Assembly: GCA_003151495.1 (NCBI GenBank)
Contig: PLXR01000056.1
Span: 1-54,855, forward strand
DNA: 54,855 nt
Source of the DNA: Opitutaceae bacterium
GTDB taxonomy: Bacteria > Verrucomicrobiota > Verrucomicrobiia > Opitutales > Opitutaceae
Reading direction: 5' to 3'
The notes below the pieces were generated by a model. It was not told where the DNA came from. It did not search any database and saw only the letters and a list, made by a program, of their open reading frames with translations. Positions 4,447-21,427 of the stretch are shown here, piece by piece; position 1 is the stretch's first letter, and each line of letters starts with the position of its first letter. The translations under genes were made by a program, and so were the position numbers.

Positions 4447-6792
4447 TCAAAGGCCGTCCGGGGCGGGCGGGGGCGTCGGCCGGGCGGCGGGCCTGGACTG
4501 GCCGAGCCTCGGGACGAGCTGCGTCGCGGCCTCGTCAAGTCGCGCCGCCGCGGAGTTGAGCGCGGCCGCCACGTCGGGGATCGAGTCGACGGCGGCGGCC
4601 CAATTGCGCTGCTCCACGGACTCGCGCACCGACGGAAGCGTCTTTGCGGCGTAGCCCGTGTAGATTCCGGGCGCATAGAGCATGTGCCGGTACCACGCGC
4701 GGCCCGGGAGGCCCCTCGCGCGGGTGAGGGACTGCTCGACGCCCTGGAGCAGCTCGTTGAGGCGCGCGAGCTCGACGGCGGGCAGCCGGAAATCCGTGCC
4801 CAGGGCCCGGTCGAAGGCCGCGTCGTAGGCCTCCGCGCTCGCCTTGAGGCGGGCCGCGGCCGCGGTGAGCGGGGCGAAGTCGAACCTCGGCACGTCCCCA
4901 GGGCTCTCGGGCGGCGCGTACGCCTCGCCCGGGTCGGCGGCCAGCCGGAACGCCCCGGAATCGATCAGCTGCCTGAGCTTCCGGGAGTCCTCCCTCTCGT
5001 CGTCGGCGAGCTTCACGACCTCCGACACGTAGCGCCCGGCCACGTCGGCGAGGCCGCCAAACCTCATCGGGAGCACGTCCGCGTCCGCCGTGCGCAGGAC
5101 GAGGCGGCCCGCGGTCTCGGCAAGCGCGACACCGTAGAGGAACTTCGGGTCGCCGAACCGGATGAAGTGGTCGAACGAGTCGTAGGTCGAATGATAGATC
5201 CCCCCGTCGGCGTCCTCTCCCTGGAAACCGAGGTTGACGGACGCGATGCCCAGGTGCTGGAGGAACGGCGTGTAGTCCGAGCCCGACCCGAGCGCCTCGA
5301 TCGGGAATTCGGCGCCGGACTCCACCGCGTCCTTCTCGGCCTGACCGTCGGAGCCCGACGTGGCGGGGACTCCGTCGACTTTGATCCTGGCGCGCAGCCG
5401 GTCCAGGATGCTGGCGCCGGTCTCGGGGTCGGTCACGGCGCCGCCCACCTCGTTGACCAGGCGCTGGTAGGAGTGGCTGCCGCCGACATAGAGGAAGCCC
5501 CTGCCGTTCGTGTCCGAATTCACATAGAGGACGGCCTTCCTCTGGAGCTCCTCCGCGTGCGTCTCGGCCCACTCGGTGGACCCGATGAGGCCGGGCTCCT
5601 CCGCGTCCCAGCTCGCGTAGACGATCGTCCGCTTCGGCCTCCAGCCGGACTTTGCGAGGGTCCCGATCGCCTTGGCCTCGGCCATCACCGCCGTGTTGCC
5701 GGCGAGGGGATCCCAGGCGCCGAAGACCCAGCCGTCGTGGTGGTTGCCCCGGATCACCCACTGGTCCGGGTAGGTCGCACCCCGCATCACCGCGACGACG
5801 TCGTAGATCGTCTTCTGCCCCCAGTCCGAGGCGACGGCGAGGTGGACCTTCGCGGGACCGGGGCCCATGTGGTAGGTGAAGGGAAGGGCTCCGCGCCAGC
5901 CCGCGGGAGCCACCGGCCCCTCGAGCGCGGCGAGGAGAGGCGTCGCATCGCGGGACGAGATGGGAATGACCGGGATCTTGAGGAGGGTCCTGGCCTCGGC
6001 GATCGGCAGGCGCTTCGCGTCCTTGGTCGCCCCGATCCCCGGCGTGAGCGGGTCGCCCGAGTACTGGGTGATGTCCCCCACCGAGCCGCGCTGCACGCCG
6101 TCCTCGGGGCGGTAGCCCCCCTTGGGATAGGTGTCGCCGGACCAGTACCCGTATTCGTGGGGGTCGGAGTAGATGATGCAGGCCACGGCGCCGTGCTCCT
6201 GGGCGAGCTTCGGCTTCAGCCCCCGCCAGCACTGCCCGTACCGGGCGATGACGATCTTCCCCCGGACATCGATCCCGCGGCGCCCGAGCTCGGCATAGTC
6301 CTCCAGGGTTCCGAAGTTCACGTACACCAGGTCGGCGGTGGCGTCCCCGTCGGCACCGTAGATGTTGTAGGGGGGCAGGCCGCCCCCGGCGTGGCCGGAG
6401 GTCCGGTCGCCCTGCACCTCGGGCTCCGCGAGCCGGGCCCTGTAGGAGGTGGGCGCCACCATCTCGAGCGCCATGCTCCTCGGGGTCGGGTAGAGCACCT
6501 CGAAGGTCTCGATCCGCGCTTCCCATCCCCACTCCTTGAATTTCCCCAGCATGAACTCCGCGTTCGCCTTGTCGTGCGGGGAGCCGACCTGGTTCGGCTC
6601 CGAGGACATCTGCTCAAGCCATGTGCGGAGCTCGGCCGGGTCGATCGCGGCATCGAAGGCCTTTTCGCGGGCGAGCTCGGCCGCCGCCGCCGCCGCCTTG
6701 AAGCCCAGCGGGGCCGCGGGCTCCGCGAGCACCATCGACCCGGGAATCGCCGCGCAGGCCAGCGCCGCGCCGATTGCTCGAATCGATCTCAT
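4447..6792 (-). CDS. M28-family zinc peptidase with PA and TFR-dimerisation domains (glutamate carboxypeptidase II-like), exported
   Basis: A 781-residue protein with a signal peptide (cut after AEPAA). Domain order matches glutamate carboxypeptidase II: an N-terminal segment, a protease-associated (PA) insert around GKIVIARYGQCWRG, a zinc peptidase domain, and a helical transferrin-receptor-like dimerisation domain in the last ~120 residues. The metal ligands and catalytic Glu are visible: GNHHDGWVFGAWDP (His/Asp), SWDAEEPGLIGS (catalytic EE), YVNSDTNGRG (Asp) and IYHSTYDSFDHF (His). Such enzymes remove C-terminal acidic or other residues from peptides in the periplasm. It is the first gene of a four-gene minus operon. 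Confidence 0.92.
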   Translation of the reverse strand: MRSIRAIGAALACAAIPGSMVLAEPAAPLGFKAAAAAAELAREKAFDAAIDPAELRTWLEQMSSEPNQVGSPHDKANAEFMLGKFKEWGWEARIETFEVLYPTPRSMALEMVAPTSYRARLAEPEVQGDRTSGHAGGGLPPYNIYGADGDATADLVYVNFGTLEDYAELGRRGIDVRGKIVIARYGQCWRGLKPKLAQEHGAVACIIYSDPHEYGYWSGDTYPKGGYRPEDGVQRGSVGDITQYSGDPLTPGIGATKDAKRLPIAEARTLLKIPVIPISSRDATPLLAALEGPVAPAGWRGALPFTYHMGPGPAKVHLAVASDWGQKTIYDVVAVMRGATYPDQWVIRGNHHDGWVFGAWDPLAGNTAVMAEAKAIGTLAKSGWRPKRTIVYASWDAEEPGLIGSTEWAETHAEELQRKAVLYVNSDTNGRGFLYVGGSHSYQRLVNEVGGAVTDPETGASILDRLRARIKVDGVPATSGSDGQAEKDAVESGAEFPIEALGSGSDYTPFLQHLGIASVNLGFQGEDADGGIYHSTYDSFDHFIRFGDPKFLYGVALAETAGRLVLRTADADVLPMRFGGLADVAGRYVSEVVKLADDEREDSRKLRQLIDSGAFRLAADPGEAYAPPESPGDVPRFDFAPLTAAAARLKASAEAYDAAFDRALGTDFRLPAVELARLNELLQGVEQSLTRARGLPGRAWYRHMLYAPGIYTGYAAKTLPSVRESVEQRNWAAAVDSIPDVAAALNSAAARLDEAATQLVPRLGQSRPAARPTPPPAPDGL

Positions 6793-10007: not shown

Positions 10008-11156
10008 TCAGCGGGGCCCGCGGCCCGCGCAGACGCGGCGGTAGAGCTCGACGTAGCGGGACACGATCGTGTCCGCGGAGAAGAGAGCACGGGCCCTCTG
10101 CCGGGCGGCCCCGCCGAGCCTCAAGCGCAGCTCCGGATTGCCGATGAGGGTCTCGGCGGCGCGGGCCACCGCGTCCGCGTCGCCGTGCGGGACCAGGAGC
10201 CCTGAGATGCCCGACTCCACCACCTCGGGGATGCCCCCCACCGCCGTCGCGACGCTGGGGCAGGAGAAGCACATCGCCTCCAGGAGGCTCAGGCAGAAGC
10301 TCTCGAGCTCGGAGGTGAAGATCCCCACGTCGGCCGCCTGCAGGTAGTCCTCAACGTCGCTCACCTGCTCGCGAACAATGACGCGGTCCGCAAGGCCGAG
10401 CCGCTGGACCTCTCCCGCAAAGGGCGAGAAGTCCGCCCCCGCGAGGATCAGGAGCTTGAAGGAGTCGCGCGGGCGGACACGGGCGACGGCCTCGAGCAGG
10501 ATGTCGATCCGCTTGAGGGGTCTGAGGTTGGAGGCGTGCAGGAGCAGGGCCTCGGATCCGACGCCCAGCTCGCGGCGGACCTCCCCACGGGGGCGCCGCG
10601 CCGGCCGCGGCTCGAAGAAGTTGTGGATGACGTCGATCGGCCTCTCGACGCCGAGCAGCTCCACGGTCTCGCGCCTTAAGAAGTCGGAGACGGTGGTCAC
10701 GGCGTCCGACTGGTCCAGGGCGTGCCGGATGGCGGGCCCGTATCCCGGGTCGCGCCCAAGCAGCGTGGTGTCGGTGCCGTGGAGCGTGGTCACGACCGCG
10801 GGTCCCCTGCCCTCCGGCAGCATCCAGCGCGCGAGGATCGCCGCCGTGGCGTGCGGGACGGCATAATGGACGTGGAGGACGTCTAGCCCGTGGTCGCGGG
10901 TCACCTCGGCCATCTTGACAGAGAGCGGAAGCGTGTAGTCCGGGTATTTGAAGAGCCCGTAGTCGTTGATCACGACCGGGTGGAAGAATATCCCCGGCGC
11001 GCCCCAGGGAAGCCGGAACGGGCGCTCGTAGCCGATGAAGTGGGCCTCGTGGCCCCGGCGTGCGAGCTCCTCGCCTAGCGCGGAGGCCAGGATGCCGCTG
11101 CCCCCCACGGATGGGTAGCAGGTGATCCCGATCTTCAGGGGCCGCCCGGTCTCCAT
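10008..11156 (-). CDS. bshA: N-acetyl-alpha-D-glucosaminyl L-malate synthase BshA
   Basis: A 382-residue GT-B glycosyltransferase (family GT4). BshA joins GlcNAc from UDP-GlcNAc to L-malate, the first step of bacillithiol synthesis. BshA hallmarks are CYPSVGGSGILASALGEELA at the N terminus, HFIGYERPFRL, VLHVHYAVPHATAA, VTTLHGTDTTLLG, SDFLRRETVELLG and VIHNFFEP. The donor-site motif is ELESFCLSLLEAMCFSCP, with Cys-Leu in place of the usual Gly-Leu/Val. ATG 11156 sits 2 bases after the bshB stop. The neighbour genes (BshB, BshC-like) support the call. Confidence 0.93.
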   Translation of the reverse strand: METGRPLKIGITCYPSVGGSGILASALGEELARRGHEAHFIGYERPFRLPWGAPGIFFHPVVINDYGLFKYPDYTLPLSVKMAEVTRDHGLDVLHVHYAVPHATAAILARWMLPEGRGPAVVTTLHGTDTTLLGRDPGYGPAIRHALDQSDAVTTVSDFLRRETVELLGVERPIDVIHNFFEPRPARRPRGEVRRELGVGSEALLLHASNLRPLKRIDILLEAVARVRPRDSFKLLILAGADFSPFAGEVQRLGLADRVIVREQVSDVEDYLQAADVGIFTSELESFCLSLLEAMCFSCPSVATAVGGIPEVVESGISGLLVPHGDADAVARAAETLIGNPELRLRLGGAARQRARALFSADTIVSRYVELYRRVCAGRGPR

Positions 11157-11158
11157 GG

Positions 11159-11896
11159 TCAGAAGCGGCGGGCGGCGCGCGCCAGGGGTTCGAGCGAACC
11201 GAACACGAGCGGGTCGTTCGGGTAGAGGGCCTGCGCGTAGCCGACACCGGACCTGAGGCCGTGCACGCGTGCGCGTGCGAGCTGGAGTTCGACGTAGTTC
11301 CGGGTCGAGAGTTGCGAGGCGTGGGCGCCCATGGCCGCCGTCCACGCCGCGACGACCTCCGGGTCCGAGATGTCCACCAGGATGGGCAGAGTGCCCGGCG
11401 GCTCGGCCTCCGGGCTCACCGCGTAGAACATCAGCAGGCCGATGGCGTGGGCCGGCCTCCGGCGCAGCGCGGCCACGCCGCCGTAGCGTGCGAGCCTCGC
11501 CGCGTCGCGGACGATCCGGCCCAGGCGGGGGTGGTCGGGGTGCTGGTTCCCGACCAGGGTCGGCGCGAGCACGATCCCCGGGCGCACCCTCCGGATGACC
11601 GCGGCCAGCGCCGCCGAGTGCGCGGGCTTCTCCTCGAGCATGGCGTCGCCGTCGAGCCTCACGAATTCCAGCGTCGCACCCAGGAGCGCCGCGGCCCTCC
11701 GCGCCTCCGCGGCGCGCCTGGCCGGCGTTCCGCTCGAGGCGGACTCGCCGCGGGAGCACACGACCAGGTGGGCGGCGCGGCCGGCGCGGGTCTCGCGGGC
11801 GATCACCCCGCCGCACCCGAACTCGACGTCGTCGGGGTGGGCGCCGAACGCGAGGAGGGGGGCGGGCTCAGGCCGAGTTTTCGCAGTAGGCTTCAT
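11159..11896 (-). CDS. bshB1: PIG-L deacetylase BshB (GlcNAc-malate deacetylase)
   Basis: A 245-residue LmbE/PIG-L zinc deacetylase. BshB removes the acetyl group from GlcNAc-malate. The metal/active-site motif is FGAHPDDVEFGCGG at residues ~17-30, followed by SRGESASSGTPARRAAEARRAA and later VGNQHPDHPRLGRIV (third metal ligand, His). MFYAVSPEAEPPGTLPILVDIS is typical of the BshB1 branch. The start at 11896 overlaps the upstream BshC-like gene by 29 bp, which supports translational coupling. It is distinct from the much larger PIG-L protein at 14475-17003. Confidence 0.9.
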   Translation of the reverse strand: MKPTAKTRPEPAPLLAFGAHPDDVEFGCGGVIARETRAGRAAHLVVCSRGESASSGTPARRAAEARRAAALLGATLEFVRLDGDAMLEEKPAHSAALAAVIRRVRPGIVLAPTLVGNQHPDHPRLGRIVRDAARLARYGGVAALRRRPAHAIGLLMFYAVSPEAEPPGTLPILVDISDPEVVAAWTAAMGAHASQLSTRNYVELQLARARVHGLRSGVGYAQALYPNDPLVFGSLEPLARAARRF

Positions 11897-12641
11897 CGGA
11901 GCGGTCGATCGGGTCCCGGTTCACAAAGGTGATCTCGGGCGCGTCCTCGCGCCTGAGGTAGGCCTGCTCCCCCGCGCCCGCGATGTAGTGGGTGCAGTGC
12001 ACCACCGACTGCATCCAGCGCAGGCGGGAGTCTCTCGTGGGGCTGACCTGGGACTTGTCGAAGGGCATGGCGGGCAGGGACACGAATGAATCCCCACCCT
12101 CGTGCAGTTGCAATGCCCCGTCGACGAACCGCGCCCGCACGGTCTCCCCGCCGAACGGCACGTCCACGAAGAACTCGGCGATGTCGCATGCGGCGCGGCG
12201 CAGGGCGGCGTCGCCGGAGCGCACGACGCGGACCCCCTCCAGGAGCCCCATCCGGGAGTACATCGCCAGGCAGAAGTCCGCGACCTGCGCCGCCTCAACG
12301 CCCCGGAAGGCCTCGACCCAGCGCGGGTCGACGAAGGCGGGCAGCTGCCGCGCGGTGTTGTCGCGCCAGCCCGCGGGGATCCGCTTCGCGAAGAGCGGCG
12401 AGAACTTCCGCTGGAGCTTGTTCTCGAACGTGAAGTTCATCGTCCGGCACTCGCCGGTCTGGCGGTGCCGGAGCGTGGTCTGCGTCTCCCGGGGGTCGTG
12501 GTCGCTGTCGTGGCAGAAGAACACGACCTCGCCCCCGAGCTCCGCCTGGAGCCGGCGCGCCGTGAACACCTTGGCCGCAAGGAACCGCCTCGGGAAGAAC
12601 CCGCACGGCTGCTGGCCGAAGCATATGACCGGGCTGCTCAT
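11868..12641 (-). CDS. Short BshC-like protein (candidate cysteine-adding enzyme)
   Basis: A 257-residue protein. Its N terminus resembles the core of BshC, the cysteine-adding enzyme of bacillithiol synthesis: CFGQQPCGFF matches the GQQAGL glycine/glutamine loop, and VVFFCHDSDHDPRE matches the family's W.AGEDHD motif. The rest (MNFTFENKLQRKFSP..., a C-terminal GAGEQAYLRRED... segment) could match later BshC parts but is too divergent to align by eye. Known BshC proteins are about twice as long, with a C-terminal coiled coil missing here. Position between a symporter and bshB-bshA supports a thiol role. ATG 12641 overlaps the symporter stop (ATGA). Confidence 0.65.
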   Translation of the reverse strand: MSSPVICFGQQPCGFFPRRFLAAKVFTARRLQAELGGEVVFFCHDSDHDPRETQTTLRHRQTGECRTMNFTFENKLQRKFSPLFAKRIPAGWRDNTARQLPAFVDPRWVEAFRGVEAAQVADFCLAMYSRMGLLEGVRVVRSGDAALRRAACDIAEFFVDVPFGGETVRARFVDGALQLHEGGDSFVSLPAMPFDKSQVSPTRDSRLRWMQSVVHCTHYIAGAGEQAYLRREDAPEITFVNRDPIDRSDEAYCENSA

Positions 12642-14347
12642 GCGGCGGACGGCGTCGGGCCGGCCCTCGTCCCGATCGCCGCCTGGAGGGCGACGCTGAA
12701 CGCCATGCATGCGGCGCAGCCTATGACGTTGTACCAGAGGTACGAGATGCCGAGGTTGAAGTAGAGGACGAACACGAGCGCCTGCGCCGCGAGGGCCGAC
12801 CAGAACACGGCGGTGCCCCCTATCCTCTTCAGGAAGAACGCCACGAGGAAGAGCCCGAGCACGACACCGTAGAAGATCGAGCCGAGGATGTTGACCGCCT
12901 GGATCAGGTTCTCGGCGAGGTTCGCGAAGAGGGCGAAGCCGATCGCGACGAGGCCCCAGAACGCGGTGAAGCACTTCGTGGCGACGACGTAGTGGGCGTC
13001 GGAGGCGTCGCGCCGGACCAGGTGCCGGTACACGTCGACCGTCGTCGTGGACCCCAGGGCGTTGAGCTCCCCCGCCTTGGACGAGAGAGCGGCGCCGAAG
13101 AACGCCGTCACCAGGAGGCCGATGAGGCCGTGGGGAAGCTGGTCGAGGATGAACGTGATGAACACGTAGTCGGAGTCGTTCGCCTTTGTCCCCGGGCTTG
13201 CCGAGTCCAGGGCGGCCCTGGTCCCGGCGCGGATGGCGTCGACCCGCGCGTGGGCCGAGAGAGCGCCCGCGCGCGCCTCCGCCTCCCCGGCCCTGTCGCC
13301 GGCGTGCCGGGCCGCGAGCCAGGCCAGGAGCGTCGCCTTCTCGGCCGCGTGCGCCTCGGTGAACTGCGCGTCCAGGGAGCGGAGCCGCCCGTCGGTCGCG
13401 CGGGCCGCCTGGGCGTTCCAGGCGGCCCTGTTGAAATAGACAGGGGGGCGCTCGAACTGGTAGAACACGAATATCAGGACCCCGAGGAGCAGGATGAAGA
13501 ACTGCATCGGGATCTTGAAGACCGCGTTGAACATGAGCCCGAGGCGGCTCTCCCGGATGGAGGCCCCGGAGAGGTAGCGCTGGACCTGGGACTGGTCCGT
13601 CCCGAAGTAGGACAGGGCTAGGAACATGCCGCCGAGCATGCCCGACCAGATCGTGTAGCGCCGGTCGAAGCTCAGCGAGAAGTCCACCGCCTCCATCTTG
13701 TGGAACCCTCCGGCGAGCGCCAGCGCGTCGGAAAAGCCGAGCCCCGCCGGCAGCCGGGCGAGGAGGACGAGGAATGCGGCCACCATGCCGGCGAAGATGA
13801 CGCCGATCTGGTACTTCTGGGTGAGGCTCACGGCGTCGCATCCGCCGGCCACCGTGTAGACGACGACGAGGAGCCCGCTGCACACGATCGTCGCGTCGAG
13901 CCTCCAGCCCATGACGGTCGAAAGCACGATCGCCGGCGCGTAGATGGTGATCCCGGCCCCGAGGCCCCGCTGGAGGAGGAAGAGCCCGGCCCCGAGGAGC
14001 CGCGTCTTGGGGTCGAACCGGTGGCCCAGGTACTCGTAGGCGGTGTAGACCTTCAGCCTGCGGTAGATCGGGAGGAACACGACGGCGATGATGACGAGCG
14101 CCAGCGGGGCGCCGAAGTAGTTCTGCACGAATCCCAGGCCGCTCTCGTAGCCCTGACCGGGGGTCGAGAGGAAGGTGATCGCGCTGGCCTGTGTTGCCAT
14201 GACCGAGAGGCCGATCGTGAGCCAGCCGGTCCCGCCGGCCCCCTTCAGGTACCGGTTGAGGTCGTGCCGCCCCCGGGTGCTCCAGACCGCATAGGCGGCG
14301 ATCCCGAGCATCGTGCCGACAAGGATCGAGTAATCGAGGGCGTTCAC
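12638..14347 (-). CDS. Sodium/solute symporter (SSS family)
   Basis: A 569-residue polytopic protein with about 13 hydrophobic segments. SSS-family signatures include GGTGWLTIGLSVMATQASAI (first sodium-site region), EYLGHRFDPKTRLLGAGLF and YFGTDQSQVQRYLS. A hydrophilic Ala/Arg-rich loop of ~80 residues (after PPVYFNRAAWN) interrupts the middle and looks helical. The GTG start (14347) overlaps the stop of the 44-residue membrane protein gene. Substrate is unknown. Its placement between a PIG-L deacetylase and bsh genes suggests transport of a bacillithiol precursor, conjugate or breakdown product. Confidence 0.88.
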   Translation of the reverse strand: MNALDYSILVGTMLGIAAYAVWSTRGRHDLNRYLKGAGGTGWLTIGLSVMATQASAITFLSTPGQGYESGLGFVQNYFGAPLALVIIAVVFLPIYRRLKVYTAYEYLGHRFDPKTRLLGAGLFLLQRGLGAGITIYAPAIVLSTVMGWRLDATIVCSGLLVVVYTVAGGCDAVSLTQKYQIGVIFAGMVAAFLVLLARLPAGLGFSDALALAGGFHKMEAVDFSLSFDRRYTIWSGMLGGMFLALSYFGTDQSQVQRYLSGASIRESRLGLMFNAVFKIPMQFFILLLGVLIFVFYQFERPPVYFNRAAWNAQAARATDGRLRSLDAQFTEAHAAEKATLLAWLAARHAGDRAGEAEARAGALSAHARVDAIRAGTRAALDSASPGTKANDSDYVFITFILDQLPHGLIGLLVTAFFGAALSSKAGELNALGSTTTVDVYRHLVRRDASDAHYVVATKCFTAFWGLVAIGFALFANLAENLIQAVNILGSIFYGVVLGLFLVAFFLKRIGGTAVFWSALAAQALVFVLYFNLGISYLWYNVIGCAACMAFSVALQAAIGTRAGPTPSAA

Positions 14348-14478
14348 GGGAACATCCGGGAGAGCGCGGCGAGGAGCGCAACCCACCCGGCGAACACCGC
14401 CATCACAAGGGCGTACACCCCCCTCCAGCTGCGCGGCCAGGGCAGGCCGGTTGTCTGGTCTTCCGGGGGCGGGGTCAT
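14344..14478 (-). CDS. 44-residue single-pass membrane protein
   Basis: A very short gene fixed by overlaps at both ends: its ATG (14478) overlaps the PIG-L stop, and its TGA overlaps the GTG of the symporter. The product has a polar N terminus (MTPPPEDQTTGLPWPRSW), one membrane segment (GVYALVMAVFAGWVALLAAL) and a two-residue tail. Small one-helix proteins next to SSS transporters are often accessory subunits or stability factors, so I infer the same here. No homologue is recognisable from memory. Confidence 0.7.
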   Translation of the reverse strand: MTPPPEDQTTGLPWPRSWRGVYALVMAVFAGWVALLAALSRMFP

Positions 14479-17003
14479 TTTCCCAGGGACACCAGGTTCG
14501 CGAAGAGGCGGTACGCACCGGGGACCCCGGCGGGGAGCTGCCGGAAGAACGAGAGGCCGGTGTAGGCGATGTAGCCGCGCCCATGGCGGGCGACGAGCAG
14601 GCCGCCCTTCAGCGGCGCCTCGCCCGCGTCGCTGCAGGCCAGGAGCGCCTCGAGGTGCCCCTCGTCCCACTCGCTTGCGAAATCGAGGCCGCGCTCCTGC
14701 ACCCATCCGTCGAAGTCCGCGGGGCCGATGCGGTTGGGCACGTTGAACGCGGGATGCCCCGGGACGAGGAGGGTGACGGGCGACTTCTCGTCGGTCACGC
14801 GGAAGTGCGGCAGGTCTCGGGAGAGCTTGAGCGTGTAGGGCGTCAGCTGCTGCGTCTTGAGCGTGCCCGGCGTGTCGTACTGCTCGACGACCGTGCCCCC
14901 GGCCTCGACCCAGGCGAAGAGGTCGGGGAGGCGCGGCGGCAAATCGCCCCTCGTGTCGAAGGCCCGGACTCCGATGACGACGGCGTCCAGTCCCTTGAGT
15001 CCCGCGGGGGTCAGGTCCGCGTCGGTCAGCTGCGTGACCGAGTAGCCCATCTGCTCCAGGCTCGCGGCCGTGGAGTCGCCCGCGCCCGGGAGGTAGCCGA
15101 CCTTGTGGCCGCGGATCGAGAGGTCCAGGCACACGGCCTTCATCCGCGCGGGCGGGTGCAGCACCTGGAGCGGGATGTGGCCGTAGCTGATCTCCAGCCT
15201 CCCGTTGCCGAAATCCGCCTTCCCGATCTCGGCTACGGCGCGGATCTCGGCCGACGCGGGGGCCGCAGGGGCCGTCACCTCGAAGGTGAGCCGCACCCGT
15301 TCGCCGACCGCGCTGGAATGGAAGGCCTGCCTCTCGGGGCGGACCCGCCACCCGCGGGGGGCCTCAAGCCGAAGGGTCCCCGCCGCGTCCGCGCGGTACG
15401 CCGTAACCTCGACGTCGACCTTTCGCACGGCTAGCGGCTGGAAGAGGACGACGGGGGACCCGAGGCTGAGCGAGACAGGGGGTATCACGTCCGGACGGCG
15501 CCGGACCAATCCCTTTGCGGGGTCCGGCGCGATGAAGGCCGGCTCGTCGCGCACGACCAGCGTCTGGCCACCGACCTCGAACACGTATTCGACCGGAATG
15601 GCGGACGGGCTCTCGGGGAGGCCGATCAGCGAGGGATCGTCGACTCGGAACATCCCGGGCGTGCCCTCCTCGCGCAGCCAGTACGGCTGGCTGAGCGGCG
15701 TCGATGGGGGGAGCGTCCGCGTCTCATCCAGGGCCGATGCCACGCCCCGGGCCAGGGCCCCCGGTCCCCTCGCCTTCCTGCCCATCCCGCCATAGCGAAC
15801 CGCAGTCCACATGACGGGAACCGCCGAGCTCACGGTCGCCCTATGGTGGAACCTGACCGGCTCGCCGGGCACGATCTCGGGCGACGGCACGGCCGTCTCC
15901 ACCATGAGCCCGAGGCAGGACTGGAGGATCCGGTCGAGCTGCCGGCGTTTCTCGTCCACGACCGGGTCGGCGGCCAGCCCTGAAAGCCTCGACCTTAGGG
16001 CGAGGATCGCCGGGACGCTCGCGGCGGGATCCTCCGGGTTGAAATTCGCGAGGGCCTCGCCCGCAAGGCGCCCGATCTCGGCGCCCCCGGGGATCCGGGC
16101 CCACGAGGTGTCGACGCCGTCCATGAAGTCCTCTGTCACGGGCTGCCCGGCCAGCACGCGGAAGGTCTCGACATCCGGCCCGGAGCCGGCCGCGGCGACG
16201 GAGAAGTTCGCGAAGCCCTGCGTGCGGTGCATCGAGCGGCTCCGCGCCGCGAGCGTCGCGAACGACGCGCCCGTCACGGGGTCGGTGCCGTCGATCCCGA
16301 CCTGGAGGATCCCCGGCCCCGTCTCCGGGGGGCCGGTGCGGCCCCAGTTGTATCCGTTCCACAGGATCCGCCTGGGCTGCCAGGGCTTGAGCGAGGCGAG
16401 CTGCTCCGGGAAGGCCCTGGGGTCGCCGGCGAGCCTGAACGCCTCGAGCGCCAGGGCGGACGAGGCGGTGTGGTGCCCGTGGGTTCCGCTGGGCTCGGGC
16501 GGGAAGCGCGTGACGATCACGTCCGGCCTGAAGACCCGGATCACGCGCACGATGTCGGAAAGCACCTGCTGGTGGTCCCACTTCGTGAGCGTCTGGCGGT
16601 AGTCCTTCGAGTAGCCGAAGTCCCGCGCCCGGCTGAAGAACTGCCTTCCCCCGTCGACCGCGCGCGCGGCCAGGAGCTCCTGGGTGCGGATGACTCCCAG
16701 GAGGTCTCCGAACTCGGGGCCCAGGACGTTCTGGCCCCCGTCCCCCCGCGTGAGCGAGAGGTAGGCGGTCCGGTAGGCCCGCCCCCGGGCGAGGTAGGCG
16801 ATCAGCTGGGTGTTCTCGTCGTCGGGATGGGCCGCAATGTAGAGCACGCTCCCGAACACGCCGAAGCTCCTGAGCTCCTGCGCGATTGCGGCCGGCGGCG
16901 GGCCCGCCCCGGGAGCGGGCCCGCCGGAGGCGGCCAGCGACGCCAGGAGAACGGCGCACGCGGCCACGCCGAAAGCCCGTTTCGGCGCGGATCGCGGACG
17001 CAT
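14475..17003 (-). CDS. Large PIG-L family deacetylase, exported
   Basis: An 842-residue protein with a signal peptide (VAACAVLLASLAASGG). The PIG-L domain follows, with VLYIAAHPDDENTQLIAYL as zinc motif, LTRGDGGQN and the later ligand GTHGHHTAS. A beta-rich middle part (FEVTAPAAPASAEIRA...) leads to a C-terminal flavodoxin/GATase-like domain (LDAVVIGVRAFDTRGDLPP...VEAGGTVVEQYDTPG). This large architecture is known next to symporters and bsh genes in Bacteroidetes and Acidobacteria. Deacetylation of an N-acetylglucosaminyl compound outside the cytoplasm is likely. ATG 17003 is 26 bp after the DUF2911 stop. Confidence 0.85.
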   Translation of the reverse strand: MRPRSAPKRAFGVAACAVLLASLAASGGPAPGAGPPPAAIAQELRSFGVFGSVLYIAAHPDDENTQLIAYLARGRAYRTAYLSLTRGDGGQNVLGPEFGDLLGVIRTQELLAARAVDGGRQFFSRARDFGYSKDYRQTLTKWDHQQVLSDIVRVIRVFRPDVIVTRFPPEPSGTHGHHTASSALALEAFRLAGDPRAFPEQLASLKPWQPRRILWNGYNWGRTGPPETGPGILQVGIDGTDPVTGASFATLAARSRSMHRTQGFANFSVAAAGSGPDVETFRVLAGQPVTEDFMDGVDTSWARIPGGAEIGRLAGEALANFNPEDPAASVPAILALRSRLSGLAADPVVDEKRRQLDRILQSCLGLMVETAVPSPEIVPGEPVRFHHRATVSSAVPVMWTAVRYGGMGRKARGPGALARGVASALDETRTLPPSTPLSQPYWLREEGTPGMFRVDDPSLIGLPESPSAIPVEYVFEVGGQTLVVRDEPAFIAPDPAKGLVRRRPDVIPPVSLSLGSPVVLFQPLAVRKVDVEVTAYRADAAGTLRLEAPRGWRVRPERQAFHSSAVGERVRLTFEVTAPAAPASAEIRAVAEIGKADFGNGRLEISYGHIPLQVLHPPARMKAVCLDLSIRGHKVGYLPGAGDSTAASLEQMGYSVTQLTDADLTPAGLKGLDAVVIGVRAFDTRGDLPPRLPDLFAWVEAGGTVVEQYDTPGTLKTQQLTPYTLKLSRDLPHFRVTDEKSPVTLLVPGHPAFNVPNRIGPADFDGWVQERGLDFASEWDEGHLEALLACSDAGEAPLKGGLLVARHGRGYIAYTGLSFFRQLPAGVPGAYRLFANLVSLGK

Positions 17004-17029: not shown

Positions 17030-18376
17030 TCACTTCAGGCCGGCGATCAGCGCCTCGTTCAAGCGGGTGTACTCGTCCTTCGCGGGGCCGGTGGTCTTCG
17101 AGGCGAGCTCGATGGAGTGCCTGGCCTCGGCTTCGGCCCCGGCCTTGTCGCCCTTCTTCGCCAGGATCCGGGCCTTGTGGTAGACAAGGTAGAACGCGTC
17201 GGGCTGCTCGGCTATGGCGGCATCCATCCACGCCGCGGCCTTGTCTAGGTCGAGGTTGTTGTCGATGTAGAACATGGCCGCCTGCGCGTAGGGTTTCGCC
17301 CCGGGCGCCGCCATCGCCGCCTCGATCCTCGGGACCATCACGCCCACCAGGTCGGTGTCGATCTTCACGGACACATGCGTCTTCTCCCACTTGAGGTTCA
17401 GCGTGGCCGTGCCCCCGCTCAGGTCGTTGAACCCGATGGTGAAGGTCTCGATGGGCTCCGCGAGCGTGCCCGCCCTCGCCGTGACGCGCAGGACGTCGTT
17501 CTTCGCGTCGTAGGCATAGGCCCCCCACTGGTTCCCGGCCTTCTGGAATATGAAGGTCCATTCGTCCGCCCCGGGGAGGGTGAACAGCTCGTAGGTGCCC
17601 GCGTCGAGGTGCTGCCCCTGGACGGTCACGGGCGTGCTGAAGCTGATCCGCGTCGCACTGTTCGCACCCGTGCGCCAGACCTGGCCGTACGGGTTGTTGC
17701 CGCCGAGCATCACGCGCCCCCTGGCGCTCGGGCGCGAATACACGACCTCGATGTCCGTCACCCCGACGCGCTGCTTGAGCGTCTCCGTCGGGCTGGCCTG
17801 GGGGAAGGCGAGCTGGGCGGCGGGAGCCTTCAGCGCCACCGAGAACTGGGTCTTCTCCCACATGATCCTGAGCGTGCCGCCGCCCGACTTGTCCTCGTCA
17901 ATTGCCAGGGTCAGCTGGTCCACGGGTTGATCAAGAGCCTCCTTCTTCAATTCCACGCGGGCGAGGTCGTGGGTCTCGTCGACCGGCACGCCCCACTTGC
18001 CCACGCTGGTGCTGATCGCGAGCCTCGACGGCCCGGTCGCCGACGGGATCGTGTACAGCGTGTAGGTCCCCGCCGGAACCGTGGCATCGCCCACGATCAG
18101 GGGCTTCTGGGTGATGAGGGTCGTCGCCTCGTCGGCTCCGAGCCGGTCGGCCTTGTCCCAGGCGACCAGGCCGCCCCAGATGACGCGCGGCTGGCCGGTC
18201 TTCGGGTCCTTCGTGTAGGGCCGGCCGTAGGTGAGGGTGACCCGGTTGCCCGTCCGCCAGTCGCCGAAGACGACGCTCACGGTCTCATGGGGGCTCTTCC
18301 GGTTTTGCTGGGCCTTCAGCGGCATGGCCGCGCAGGCGGCGAGGAACAGGGCTAGGATGTATCTGAGGTGTCTCAT
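17030..18376 (-). CDS. Exported protein with two DUF2911 domains and TPR-like tail
   Basis: A 448-residue protein with a signal peptide cut near LKAQQ. It contains two copies of DUF2911: the first (~30-170) has VTLTYGRPYTKDP and WGGLVAWDKADRLGADEATT; the second (~195-335) has VVYSRPSARGRVMLGGNNPY and GQVWRTGANSATRI. Each is followed by the AGTYTLYTIP/AGTYELFTLP and EKTQF/EKTHV strands. The last ~100 residues are helical and fit two TPR-like repeats. Function unknown. ATG 18376 has a well-placed AGGAG. Only 26 bp separate it from the large PIG-L gene, so it may lead that operon. Confidence 0.85.
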   Translation of the reverse strand: MRHLRYILALFLAACAAMPLKAQQNRKSPHETVSVVFGDWRTGNRVTLTYGRPYTKDPKTGQPRVIWGGLVAWDKADRLGADEATTLITQKPLIVGDATVPAGTYTLYTIPSATGPSRLAISTSVGKWGVPVDETHDLARVELKKEALDQPVDQLTLAIDEDKSGGGTLRIMWEKTQFSVALKAPAAQLAFPQASPTETLKQRVGVTDIEVVYSRPSARGRVMLGGNNPYGQVWRTGANSATRISFSTPVTVQGQHLDAGTYELFTLPGADEWTFIFQKAGNQWGAYAYDAKNDVLRVTARAGTLAEPIETFTIGFNDLSGGTATLNLKWEKTHVSVKIDTDLVGVMVPRIEAAMAAPGAKPYAQAAMFYIDNNLDLDKAAAWMDAAIAEQPDAFYLVYHKARILAKKGDKAGAEAEARHSIELASKTTGPAKDEYTRLNEALIAGLK

Positions 18377-18485: not shown

Positions 18486-19397
18486 CTAGTTCCTCTCGAG
18501 GAGGCCCAGGCCCCGCATCCAGTCGGCCGCGCGATCGGGCCAGGTCGTCACAGTGTCCCTCGTTCGCCTCAGCCCGTATCCGTGGCCCCCTGTCGGGTAG
18601 ACATGCAGCTCAAAGGGAACCTTCGCCTCCCTCAGGGCCATCGCGTAGCCAAGGACGTTCTCGACATGGATCGGGTCGTCCACGGCCATCACGAGGAAGG
18701 TGGGGGGCGTGGCCGGGTTGACCGCCGCCTCCGGGGCGATCGCATACCCGCCCGCGTCACTTACGAGGTAGGCCGGGTAGATGAGGAGCTGGAAATCCGG
18801 GCGGCAGCTCGCGTCGTCCGAGCTGTCCACGCGGGGATAGGTCCGCGACGAAGCCTGGGCGCTCAGGACGGCGCAGAGGTTCCCCCCGGCCGAGAAGCCG
18901 AGCACGCCGATGCGGCCCGGGTTGAGCCCCCACTCGCCGGCGTGCGACCGGACGATGCCGACGGCGCGCTGGGCGTCCTGGAGCGGAGCCGCGTAGGGCG
19001 GCCTCCCCTCGCGCCTCGGGACGCGGTACTTCACGAGCACGGCGGTGACCCCGATGGAGTTGAGCCACTCGCAGACCTCGGTCCCCTCGAGATCGATCGC
19101 GAGAATGTAGTAGCCGCCCCCGGGGCAGACCACGACCGTCGTGCCGGTGTCGGCGAAGGGCATGGGCCTATAGACCGTGATCGTGGGCTCCGAGACATTC
19201 CCGAGCGCAATGACCTTCCGGCCGGCCTGGAGGCCGTCGGTCGGCTTCCTCACGTCGCGCTCCTCCCCTATCCCGCCCGTCTCCCCGGGCGCGGCCGCGG
19301 GCCACAGCCTCATCGGTGGCGACTGGGCCCCGAGGCAGGCTGCCCCAAGGAGCGCGAGCGCCAATCCGGCAGAGGTTCTTCTGCGCCTAGTTTGCAC
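18486..19397 (-). CDS. Exported alpha/beta hydrolase (esterase/lipase family), tandem copy 2
   Basis: A 303-residue protein with a signal peptide ending LGAQSPP. It is an acetyl-xylan-esterase-like alpha/beta hydrolase: CPGGGYYILAIDLEG forms the oxyanion-hole region, GVLGFSAGGNLCAVLS holds the nucleophile Ser, VMAVDDPIHVENV the acid and PTGGHGYGLRR the His. The family removes acyl groups from plant polysaccharides or small esters. The GTG start (19397) lies inside the end of the upstream copy with an 11-bp overlap. It is strikingly similar to copy 1 along its whole length. Confidence 0.88.
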   Translation of the reverse strand: MQTRRRRTSAGLALALLGAACLGAQSPPMRLWPAAAPGETGGIGEERDVRKPTDGLQAGRKVIALGNVSEPTITVYRPMPFADTGTTVVVCPGGGYYILAIDLEGTEVCEWLNSIGVTAVLVKYRVPRREGRPPYAAPLQDAQRAVGIVRSHAGEWGLNPGRIGVLGFSAGGNLCAVLSAQASSRTYPRVDSSDDASCRPDFQLLIYPAYLVSDAGGYAIAPEAAVNPATPPTFLVMAVDDPIHVENVLGYAMALREAKVPFELHVYPTGGHGYGLRRTRDTVTTWPDRAADWMRGLGLLERN

Positions 19398-20292
19398 CCA
19401 GGATCCCCCGGCCTTTCATCCAGTCCGCGGCGCGCTTCGGCCAGGTGGTGACAAAGTCCTTTGTGGGCCTGAGCCCATAGCCGTGGCCCCCTGTCGGGTA
19501 GACGTGCAGCTCAAAGGGAACCTTGGCCTCCTTCAGGGCCATCGCGTAGCCGAGGACGTTCTCGACGCGGACCGGGTCGTCGAGCGCCATCGCAAGGAAG
19601 GTCGGGGGAGTGCCGGCCGTCACGGCGGCCTCAGGGCCGACCGTGTACGCCTTTTCCTTCTCCTTCCCGACCAGGCCGCCGGGATAGATGAGGATCTGGA
19701 AGTCGGGGCGGCAGCTCGCGTCGTCCGATTCATCGACACGGGGATAGGTCCGGGCGTCCGCGTGCGCGCAAAGCGTCGCGCTGAGGTGCCCCCCCGCTGA
19801 AAAGCCGAGGATGCCCACCCTTGCCGGGTCAATGCCCCACTCCTTGGCGTGGGAGCGGACGATCCCAACGGAGCGCTGCGCATCCTGGAGTGGCGCCGCA
19901 TAGGCGGGCTGGCCCTCCCGCGCAGGGACCCGGTACTTGAGCAGCACGCCCGTGATCCCGATGGAATTGAGCCATTCGCACACCTCGGTGCCCTCGAGGT
20001 CCATCGCCAGGATGTGGTATCCGCCGCCCGGGCAGACCAGAACGGCGGCGCCGGTGTCCCCGGAGGCGGGACGGTACACGGTGAGGGTCGGGTCGGAGAC
20101 GTTGCCGAGCCGGATCAGCGGCCTCCCGGCAATCAGGTTGTCCTTCGGCGTGGTCGTGTCCCCCTCCACTCCGATCCCGCCCTTTTCCCCGGGTGCGGCC
20201 CCCGGCCAGACCCTCATCGGCGGCGACTGGGCCCCGAGGCTTGCGGCGCACAGGAGCGCAAGGACAACACAGCGGGGCGCTTGCGGGGTCAT
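19387..20292 (-). CDS. Exported alpha/beta hydrolase (esterase/lipase family), tandem copy 1
   Basis: A 301-residue paralogue of the downstream gene. It has signal peptide ASLGAQSPP, oxyanion region CPGGGYHILAMDLEG, nucleophile elbow GILGFSAGGHLSATL, acid region AMALDDPVRVENV and His region PTGGHGYGLRP. The two share long identical stretches, such as LEGTEVCEWLNSIG, DAQRxVGIVRSHA and VENVLGYAMAL. They clearly arose by tandem duplication and may act on related acylated sugars. ATG 20292 follows 55 bp after the stop of the sugar kinase gene, so co-transcription is possible. Confidence 0.88.
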   Translation of the reverse strand: MTPQAPRCVVLALLCAASLGAQSPPMRVWPGAAPGEKGGIGVEGDTTTPKDNLIAGRPLIRLGNVSDPTLTVYRPASGDTGAAVLVCPGGGYHILAMDLEGTEVCEWLNSIGITGVLLKYRVPAREGQPAYAAPLQDAQRSVGIVRSHAKEWGIDPARVGILGFSAGGHLSATLCAHADARTYPRVDESDDASCRPDFQILIYPGGLVGKEKEKAYTVGPEAAVTAGTPPTFLAMALDDPVRVENVLGYAMALKEAKVPFELHVYPTGGHGYGLRPTKDFVTTWPKRAADWMKGRGILGAN

Positions 20293-20347
20293 CCCGCGAG
20301 CGAACTCCCACGGGACGGGACAGTCGATCCAATTTGTCGCGACGGCC

Positions 20348-21427
20348 CTATGCGGCCGCCGAGAGGATCCGGTGCAGGAGCGCCTCGTCCCCGAACCCGC
20401 CCGACTTGGAGACGACGATCGTCCCGTCCCAGCGCCCCCCGACGAACCTCGACACGGGCACCCCGGGGATGACCTGGCCCACGACCTCCAGGTGGTGCGT
20501 CCCCAGCGCCTGGCAGAGGGCGCGCAGGGTCTCCCCCCCGGATGCAATGAGAGTCCGGGGCTTCGGGATCTTCTCCGCGAGCCGCCCGAATCCGCCCGAG
20601 ATCCGGCGAGCGGCCTCCGCCCGGGCCGTGCCGGGCGGCAGGGCGAAGCGCACGAGGCAGACCCCGGGGTCGCCGAGCCGTGCAGCCACCCGCGCCGCGT
20701 CACTCTCCCCGTCCCCGATAGAGAGGACGACGGGGCCGCACCTCTCGAGCTGCGCCGCGGTCGCGGGATGGTCCGTGCCGAAAAGCCCAAGGACCGGGCT
20801 CGCAAGGGCCGGGGCCATGGGCACCCTTCCCCCCGCGATCGCCGCCGCGAGCCCCCCGCTTCCGCACCACAGCACGGGCGACTGCAGCTCCTTCCCCGCG
20901 TCGGCGATGCGGCGGAGGTCCGCGTCGGTCTCCGCGTCCCAGAGGCTCACGCCTTCAGGCACGGGCCCCCCCGCCCGCGCGAGGACCATGGGGATTCCAT
21001 GGGAGAGGAGGGCGGCCCCGAGATCCTCCCCGCTTGGCCCGGGGGCGCCCGCCTGGAACTGACGTCCCCCGCGGGTGACCCGCCCGTGCAGCGGGAAGGC
21101 CGGGGCGACGATGCAGTATCGCGGGAGCGTCGCGCGGAGCGTGGCGGCCAGCTCCAGGCCCGGATGCCCTCGCAGGAGGCTGTCGACCTTCCTGTAGGAG
21201 ATCGCCCCGGATTCCCGCAGGAGGATGCCGGCAAGGCGCGCGGCCTCCGACGCCGCGGACGCCGCGTCCAGCTCCCGTGTGGCGGAATCAACCGCCATCT
21301 CCCCCGGAAGCGGCGAGGGAAGCCTCCCGCCGAGATAGACGGGCAGCGCGCGCCCAACGCCCACGAATTGCGCCGCGGTGTCGAGGGCTCCTGTTAGGTC
21401 GTCGGCGACGAGACGGAGGGGCTTCAT
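20348..21427 (-). CDS. Four-carbon acid sugar kinase family protein (DUF1537)
   Basis: A 359-residue cytoplasmic protein. The N-terminal domain begins with the family signature LRLVADDLTGALDTAAQF. It contains YRKVDSLLRGHPGLEL and CIVAPAFPLHGRVTRGGRQ, which bind the four-carbon acid sugar. The C-terminal nucleotide-binding domain has LIASGGETLRALCQALG and the typical end GGRWDGTIVVSKSGGFGDE. Known members phosphorylate 3-dehydrotetronate, erythronate or threonate. The protein is somewhat shorter than usual. The expected partners (PdxA2 and class II aldolase) are not adjacent, so the substrate is open. Confidence 0.88.
   Translation of the reverse strand: MKPLRLVADDLTGALDTAAQFVGVGRALPVYLGGRLPSPLPGEMAVDSATRELDAASAASEAARLAGILLRESGAISYRKVDSLLRGHPGLELAATLRATLPRYCIVAPAFPLHGRVTRGGRQFQAGAPGPSGEDLGAALLSHGIPMVLARAGGPVPEGVSLWDAETDADLRRIADAGKELQSPVLWCGSGGLAAAIAGGRVPMAPALASPVLGLFGTDHPATAAQLERCGPVVLSIGDGESDAARVAARLGDPGVCLVRFALPPGTARAEAARRISGGFGRLAEKIPKPRTLIASGGETLRALCQALGTHHLEVVGQVIPGVPVSRFVGGRWDGTIVVSKSGGFGDEALLHRILSAAA

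Follow-up and report, generated by a model that had tools for sequence, protein, structure and literature searches.

A compact BshC-like protein in the bacillithiol-type operon of Opitutaceae

The window analysed here, a whole contig of 54,855 nucleotides (PLXR01000056.1, C163) from an Opitutaceae bacterium, is part of a 4.1 Mb assembly in 165 contigs that is 80% complete. On its minus strand lies an operon transcribed in the order large PIG-L protein, sodium:solute symporter, a 257-residue minimal BshC-like protein (hereafter X), bshB and bshA (Table 1). An intact open reading frame (ORF) for X occupies the position expected for bshC, as a preliminary description of this DNA had stated, and the close ties to both neighbouring genes described there were found as well. 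The ATG of X overlaps the stop of the symporter gene (12638), and the 3′ end of X overlaps the bshB ATG (11896) by 29 bases. The stop of bshB (11159) is in turn separated from the bshA ATG (11156) by a gap of only 2 bases.

A short and conserved protein family

A scan of genome contigs, from which alone the distribution of X beyond the phylum was gauged, returned 271 stretches, 250 of them encoding a relative of X. The best 80 of these 250, with 67-86% identity, were kept, and all come from verrucomicrobial taxa, mostly Opitutaceae or Opitutae/Opitutia. No match to X was found in the plasmid collection. All 121 homologues collected (109 distinct) are 253-282 residues long, so X is not a truncation artefact. 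An alignment of 60 members, which share 54-84% identity with X, has 52 invariant columns. In six comparisons, of which four are distinct because two row pairs are identical, differences at the third codon position (31-39% of codons) are more frequent than those at the first and second (7-16%) by a factor of 2.2 to 5.9. The invariant columns and the third-position excess together exclude a chance ORF, and the codon-position pattern fits purifying selection. Over the 80 loci, the mean distance is lowest for X (0.308), followed by BshA (0.343) and BshB (0.405).

Several irregularities were seen within the family. The X matches in three genomes (G018, G062 and G088) were flagged with one internal stop; these matches reach residue 255-257, and the flagged codon is probably the natural stop. 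At locus L073, the first 28 residues of X are encoded a second time (4458-4541), with some 1.5 kb between this piece and the full gene downstream (6001-6768); the arrangement resembles a duplication of the start of X by an insertion. An apparent X-BshB fusion of about 500 residues at four loci was rejected, as stop codons separate the two genes.

Relation of X to BshC in fold and sequence

The AlphaFold2 model of X has a mean predicted local distance difference test score (pLDDT) of 95.4 and a predicted template modelling score (pTM) of 0.92. When this model was compared with the PDB using Foldseek, one of the 828 matches was significant at E<=0.001, namely B. subtilis BshC (4wbd; E 3.5e-9, probability 1.00). 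The same structure was again the sole significant match (E 4.3e-10) for a divergent homologue (about 55% identity to X), whose model was built from a subset of the same alignment rows and is thus a repeat rather than an independent data set. As modelled, X keeps the Rossmann core fold of 4wbd; a fold unrelated to the BshC core, an outcome that the preliminary description had allowed for, was not what the prediction gave. The next-ranked matches, class I aminoacyl-tRNA synthetases (TyrRS, GluRS) with E about 0.01 and TM-scores of about 0.3, are not significant, and the resemblance is consistent with a nucleotide-binding Rossmann core. MshC, the cysteine ligase that carries out the analogous step in mycothiol synthesis, is a relative of CysRS; it is absent among the 50 of the 828 PDB matches listed for the X model.

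At the level of sequence the relation to BshC is distant. A phmmer search of X against the PDB gave no match, and hmmsearch with alignment A1 returned a response-regulator match alone (E 1.1). The Pfam model of BshC (PF10079) matches 5 of the 60 X members at E<=1, with a best E of 8.5e-6, and TIGR03998 matches 7 of the 60, with a best E of 2e-4 and 20.4 bits against a cut-off of 265.8; two canonical BshC controls scored 347 and 647 on the latter model. When ten members were scanned singly, three had a BshC match, all of them divergent members; matches to other families were scattered and weaker (best 0.0088). Profile-profile alignment by hhalign of the 60 X members with five BshC sequences covered 54 columns at E 8.3e-4, and its HH probability was only 24%. 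The score of 34.8 exceeded those of all 300 column-shuffled controls (best 26.6) and of a reversed control (17.9). The 17 divergent X members aligned with BshC at E 4.6e-5 over 218 columns with a probability of 69%, a comparison made without a shuffled control.

When full-length X and BshC sequences were forced into alignment, 13 of the 21 positions invariant in both families (95% of the 60 X rows and 5/5 BshC) are identical, and the other 8 differ. The common residues of X are G9, Q10, Q11, K24, D47, H48, D49, E52, R206, Q211, G222, E225 and Y228, so that X has the GQQ, K, DHD, E, R, Q, G, E and Y positions of BshC. The GQQPCGFF and HDSDHD motifs noted in the preliminary description are both present. 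The GQQ of X is followed by PCGFF or a near variant of it, and that of the five BshC by AG, then two residues and (T/S)G. BshC has about 520-540 residues to the 257 of X, and the alignment between them ends at BshC residue 358 (profile) or 419 (forced). Missing from X are the first ~80 residues of BshC, ~30-40 residues of its helical middle, and the C-terminal region together with its coiled coil. The preliminary description had X lacking the long C-terminal part; this holds as far as the half-length size and the missing coiled coil are concerned, but X retains, at residues 206-228, the core motif R..Q...G.E..Y that stands late in BshC. The shared residues are distributed over nearly the whole length of X, which points to a compacted core rather than one half of the enzyme.

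X also has invariant residues of its own among the 60 aligned members, namely H44, D45, C124, R169-A170-R171, C216 and H218. Of its cysteines, C124 and C216 are invariant and C13 nearly so, and no cysteine is invariant in the five BshC compared. The cysteines, with H44, H48 and H218, might serve as a metal or redox site. On the sequence and fold comparisons, X is best described as a homologous and previously unannotated variant of BshC. It lies outside the BshC family as currently modelled, because it scores below the curated cut-offs and has no C-terminal domain.

Co-occurrence with BshA and gene neighbourhood

Three overlapping draws of genomes were searched, from the family (120), the phylum (288) and the class (188). 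In the family draw, X was found in 70 genomes and BshA in 69 at E<=1e-60. Of these, 68 are above the BshA cut-off, and the sole BshA under it (G088) is clipped by a contig end. The two sets of genomes are the same except for one genome with X and no BshA (G028), in which the contig ends within bshB. No family genome of the 120 has a PF10079 match above cut-off, and the single sub-threshold match is a homologue of X itself. A full-length bshC elsewhere in the genome of the window, which the preliminary description had raised as a possibility, was likewise not found (PF10079, E<=10; assembly 80% complete).

The wider draws gave the same picture. In the phylum draw, BshA was found in 19 genomes, 17 with X and 2, from another family, with canonical BshC; in the class draw, X and BshA were found in the identical 23 genomes. 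Together the draws contain 84 distinct genomes with BshA and 83 with X; 82 genomes belong to both groups, and the two BshA genomes left over carry canonical BshC. Canonical BshC was searched for in 74 of the 84 BshA genomes, ten class-draw genomes lying outside that search, and in none of the 74 do X and canonical BshC occur together. X thus replaces BshC in genomes with BshA. Among matches set aside, an X match in one phylum-draw genome (G243, E 9e-4) was dropped as chance, since none of the five ORFs of at least 200 residues listed there looks like X; the largest ORF at that locus looks like a membrane permease. Sub-cut-off PF10079 matches in G308 and G325 (E 0.004-0.006, ~107 profile positions in ~1200-residue frames) were left uncounted, and those in G048 and G078 are X homologues themselves. 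X and BshA also co-occur in three genomes (G001, G079 and G102) that have them on separate contigs. The bacillithiol-type pathway can be unlinked in these genomes, and G079 has two BshA.

Linkage is nevertheless the rule: within the sequence available for the 80 X loci, 79 have BshB, 74 have BshA nearby, 74 have the symporter and 63 have the large PIG-L protein. Among the six loci without a nearby BshA, two (L047, L048) are cut off by the end of the contig, within bshB or ahead of it, and four (L008, L016, L073, L080) continue for more than 3 kb past bshB without bshA, so they have no closely linked copy. Directly after X lies bshB in 21 of 22 loci checked; at the exception (L141, genome G356) bshA comes straight after X and the 12.7 kb of sequence available shows no BshB, so the deacetylase may have been replaced or may be encoded in another part of the genome. 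In the same phylum, the two canonical loci read bshC-bshB-bshA, matching the order X-bshB-bshA, and the symporter and large PIG-L gene were not found within 14 kb of them.

Table 1. Genes of the operon and conserved motifs of X in the window
Feature	Coordinates	Strand	Evidence
X (257-residue minimal BshC-like protein)	11868..12641	-	intact ORF; predicted fold match to 4wbd; BshC profile match; co-occurrence with BshA
GQQ motif of X (residues 9-11)	12609..12617	-	equals GQQ of BshC; invariant in both alignments
HDSDHD motif of X (residues 44-49)	12495..12512	-	D47 H48 D49 align with BshC D133 H134 D135
R206..Q211 of X	12009..12026	-	aligned to BshC R334..Q338; invariant in both families
GAGEQAY of X (residues 222-228)	11958..11978	-	aligned to BshC G350-Y356; G, E and Y kept in both
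bshB (GlcNAc-malate deacetylase-like PIG-L protein)	11159..11896	-	PF02585 E 3.3e-24; TIGR04001 122.9 bits, under cut-off of 182.5
bshA (N-acetyl-glucosaminyl L-malate synthase)	10008..11156	-	TIGR03999 387.2 bits, above equivalog cut-off of 273.7
Sodium:solute symporter	12638..14584 (longest ORF)	-	PF00474 and TIGR00813 above cut-off
842-residue PIG-L protein, signal-peptide-like start (by eye)	14475..17003	-	PF02585 above cut-off; TIGR03446 40.4 bits, under cut-off

The true start of the symporter, judged by eye, is probably nearer 14340. The large PIG-L protein, for which the query of the profile scan was extended to 17150, has a distant, sub-cut-off likeness to the mycothiol conjugate amidase Mca (TIGR03446) and, speculatively, may process thiol conjugates. 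It recurs with the symporter at the X operon, possibly for the processing and uptake of such conjugates. The gene upstream of the operon (17030-18376, minus strand), whose product we take to resemble tandem DUF2911, is matched by a similar-looking cluster (by eye) that accompanies X at 54 of 99 loci. Beyond it, at 18486-20805 on the same strand, are two similar adjoining ORFs, apparently tandem duplicated alpha/beta-hydrolase-type proteins (by eye). Recurrent neighbour clusters were assembled from ORFs of at least 110 codons present in at least 8 of the 99 loci and were judged by eye. No amino-acid supply gene is apparent among them, nor is a methyltransferase or thiol reductase, although proteins below 110 residues were excluded and a small thioredoxin would escape.

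Proposed function of X and competing explanations

Taken together, the intact and conserved gene, the BshC-like predicted fold, the common invariant residues, the place in the operon and the replacement of BshC make it probable that X is a compact BshC relative that performs the last step of bacillithiol synthesis, the joining of cysteine to glucosaminyl-malate (GlcN-malate). In the proposed pathway, BshA would join uridine diphosphate N-acetylglucosamine (UDP-GlcNAc) and malate, and BshB would take off the acetyl group to give GlcN-malate. X would then activate cysteine and couple it to the freed amine, yielding bacillithiol. From BshC we infer that X is catalytic, that cysteine is its substrate and what the thiol would be. 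The preliminary description's suggestion of a minimal cysteine-adding enzyme is supported by the gene order and the co-occurrence, and its identification of bshA stands. For bshB, the tight linkage was confirmed but the clear identity was not: the protein is nearest to BshB1 and falls short of the TIGR04001 cut-off (Table 1), even though the AHPDD and HPDH motifs are each found in 139 of 140 homologous, partly redundant loci. On the same model, one BshB found next to canonical BshC in this phylum (L142) reaches 207.3 bits, unlike the divergent BshB of the X operon. In a search confined to the glutathione synthetase model TIGR01380, with GshF and other routes outside its scope, no match was found in the 120 family genomes, which agrees with a bacillithiol-type thiol being a main buffer where X is present.

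In structural terms, X would be the Rossmann core of BshC without the coiled coil used for dimerization. The available part of a 2015 review states that BshC dimerization requires the coiled coil; it also describes citrate and glycerol in the BshC active site, with adenosine diphosphate (ADP) in a second pocket (PMC4360819). The loss of the coiled coil predicts that X is a monomer or forms another kind of dimer.

Several results weigh against the assignment of X to the last step. The BshC profile search proposed in the preliminary description gave a divided answer, in that homologues of X match PF10079 but X of the window has no Pfam or NCBIfam match at E<=10, BshC models included. Even the best PF10079 score among the 60 members, 25.8 bits, is under the cut-off of 27. 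The agreement of the X model with 4wbd is moderate (TM-score 0.64 by X length, root mean square deviation 6.6, 15% identity), and BshB is below its cut-off, as noted above. Furthermore, YpdA (TIGR04018) is above cut-off in none of the 120 family genomes, with 11 weaker matches at E<=1e-20, while all three BshA-positive control genomes reach the cut-off. The bacilliredoxins BrxA/B (PF06491) were also found in none of the 120 genomes, a null result that says little because only B. subtilis of the three controls has PF06491. The YpdA result and the atypical BshB speak against a fully canonical bacillithiol system in the X-bearing family. Finally, the Fisher p for the co-occurrence of X and BshA (about 1e-30 or less) overstates the case, as the genomes are related and the counts are not independent.

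Some of these observations would be expected if X were a BshC-type ligase adding a different amino acid or thiol donor, with the operon making a bacillithiol-related thiol. The PCGFF that follows GQQ in place of AG, the invariant residues peculiar to X and the atypical BshB all point in this direction, and YpdA below cut-off throughout the family leaves room for a modified thiol. However, BshA is an ordinary malate enzyme above its cut-off, the residues common to X and BshC are spread along the core, and no recurrent neighbour at the 99 loci resembles an amino-acid supply gene, so we consider this explanation unlikely. An elaborated version, in which a stripped ligase of altered specificity and a divergent BshB make a new thiol on the GlcN-malate scaffold, with recycling unrelated to YpdA and extracytoplasmic turnover of conjugates by the PIG-L protein and symporter, is to be regarded as a doubtful proposition.

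It is less plausible still that X is a BshC-derived partner or regulator of BshB/BshA and that the ligase is an unrelated gene elsewhere. Half of BshC is missing from X, and according to the available part of the 2015 review there was at that time no in vitro demonstration of BshC activity, nor was the mechanism of ligation understood (PMC4360819). Yet the bshC slot is occupied by X, no other BshC relative above cut-off is present in the 120 family genomes, and the strict retention of BshC core residues argues for catalysis. Only the shortness of X relative to BshC would speak for a decayed or mis-assembled bshC fragment, an explanation already refuted by the narrow length range of all 121 homologues, the 52 invariant columns, the codon pattern of purifying selection, and a mean distance lower than those of BshB and BshA.

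The preferred reading, that X is a compact enzyme for the last step, also bears on how the pathway is surveyed. A 2025 survey, in the part available, accepts as BshC proteins of similar length with >80% coverage and 25% identity (PMC12719100), and its length and coverage criteria would exclude X. In the available text of a 2018 survey, Verrucomicrobia are without a documented or predicted low-molecular-weight thiol (PMC6282198). Neither a short BshC nor a bacillithiol pathway in Opitutaceae is described in the literature found, which consists mostly of titles and the beginnings of abstracts, and none that pairs 'bacillithiol' with 'Opitut' was found.

A natural core of 257 residues without the coiled coil could ease the study of the BshC mechanism, and it indicates which BshC residues may suffice. 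X supplies the missing third gene of the pathway and with it a clear thiol prediction for one verrucomicrobial lineage. If this reading of X is true, X-bearing Verrucomicrobia would have a predicted protective thiol buffer.

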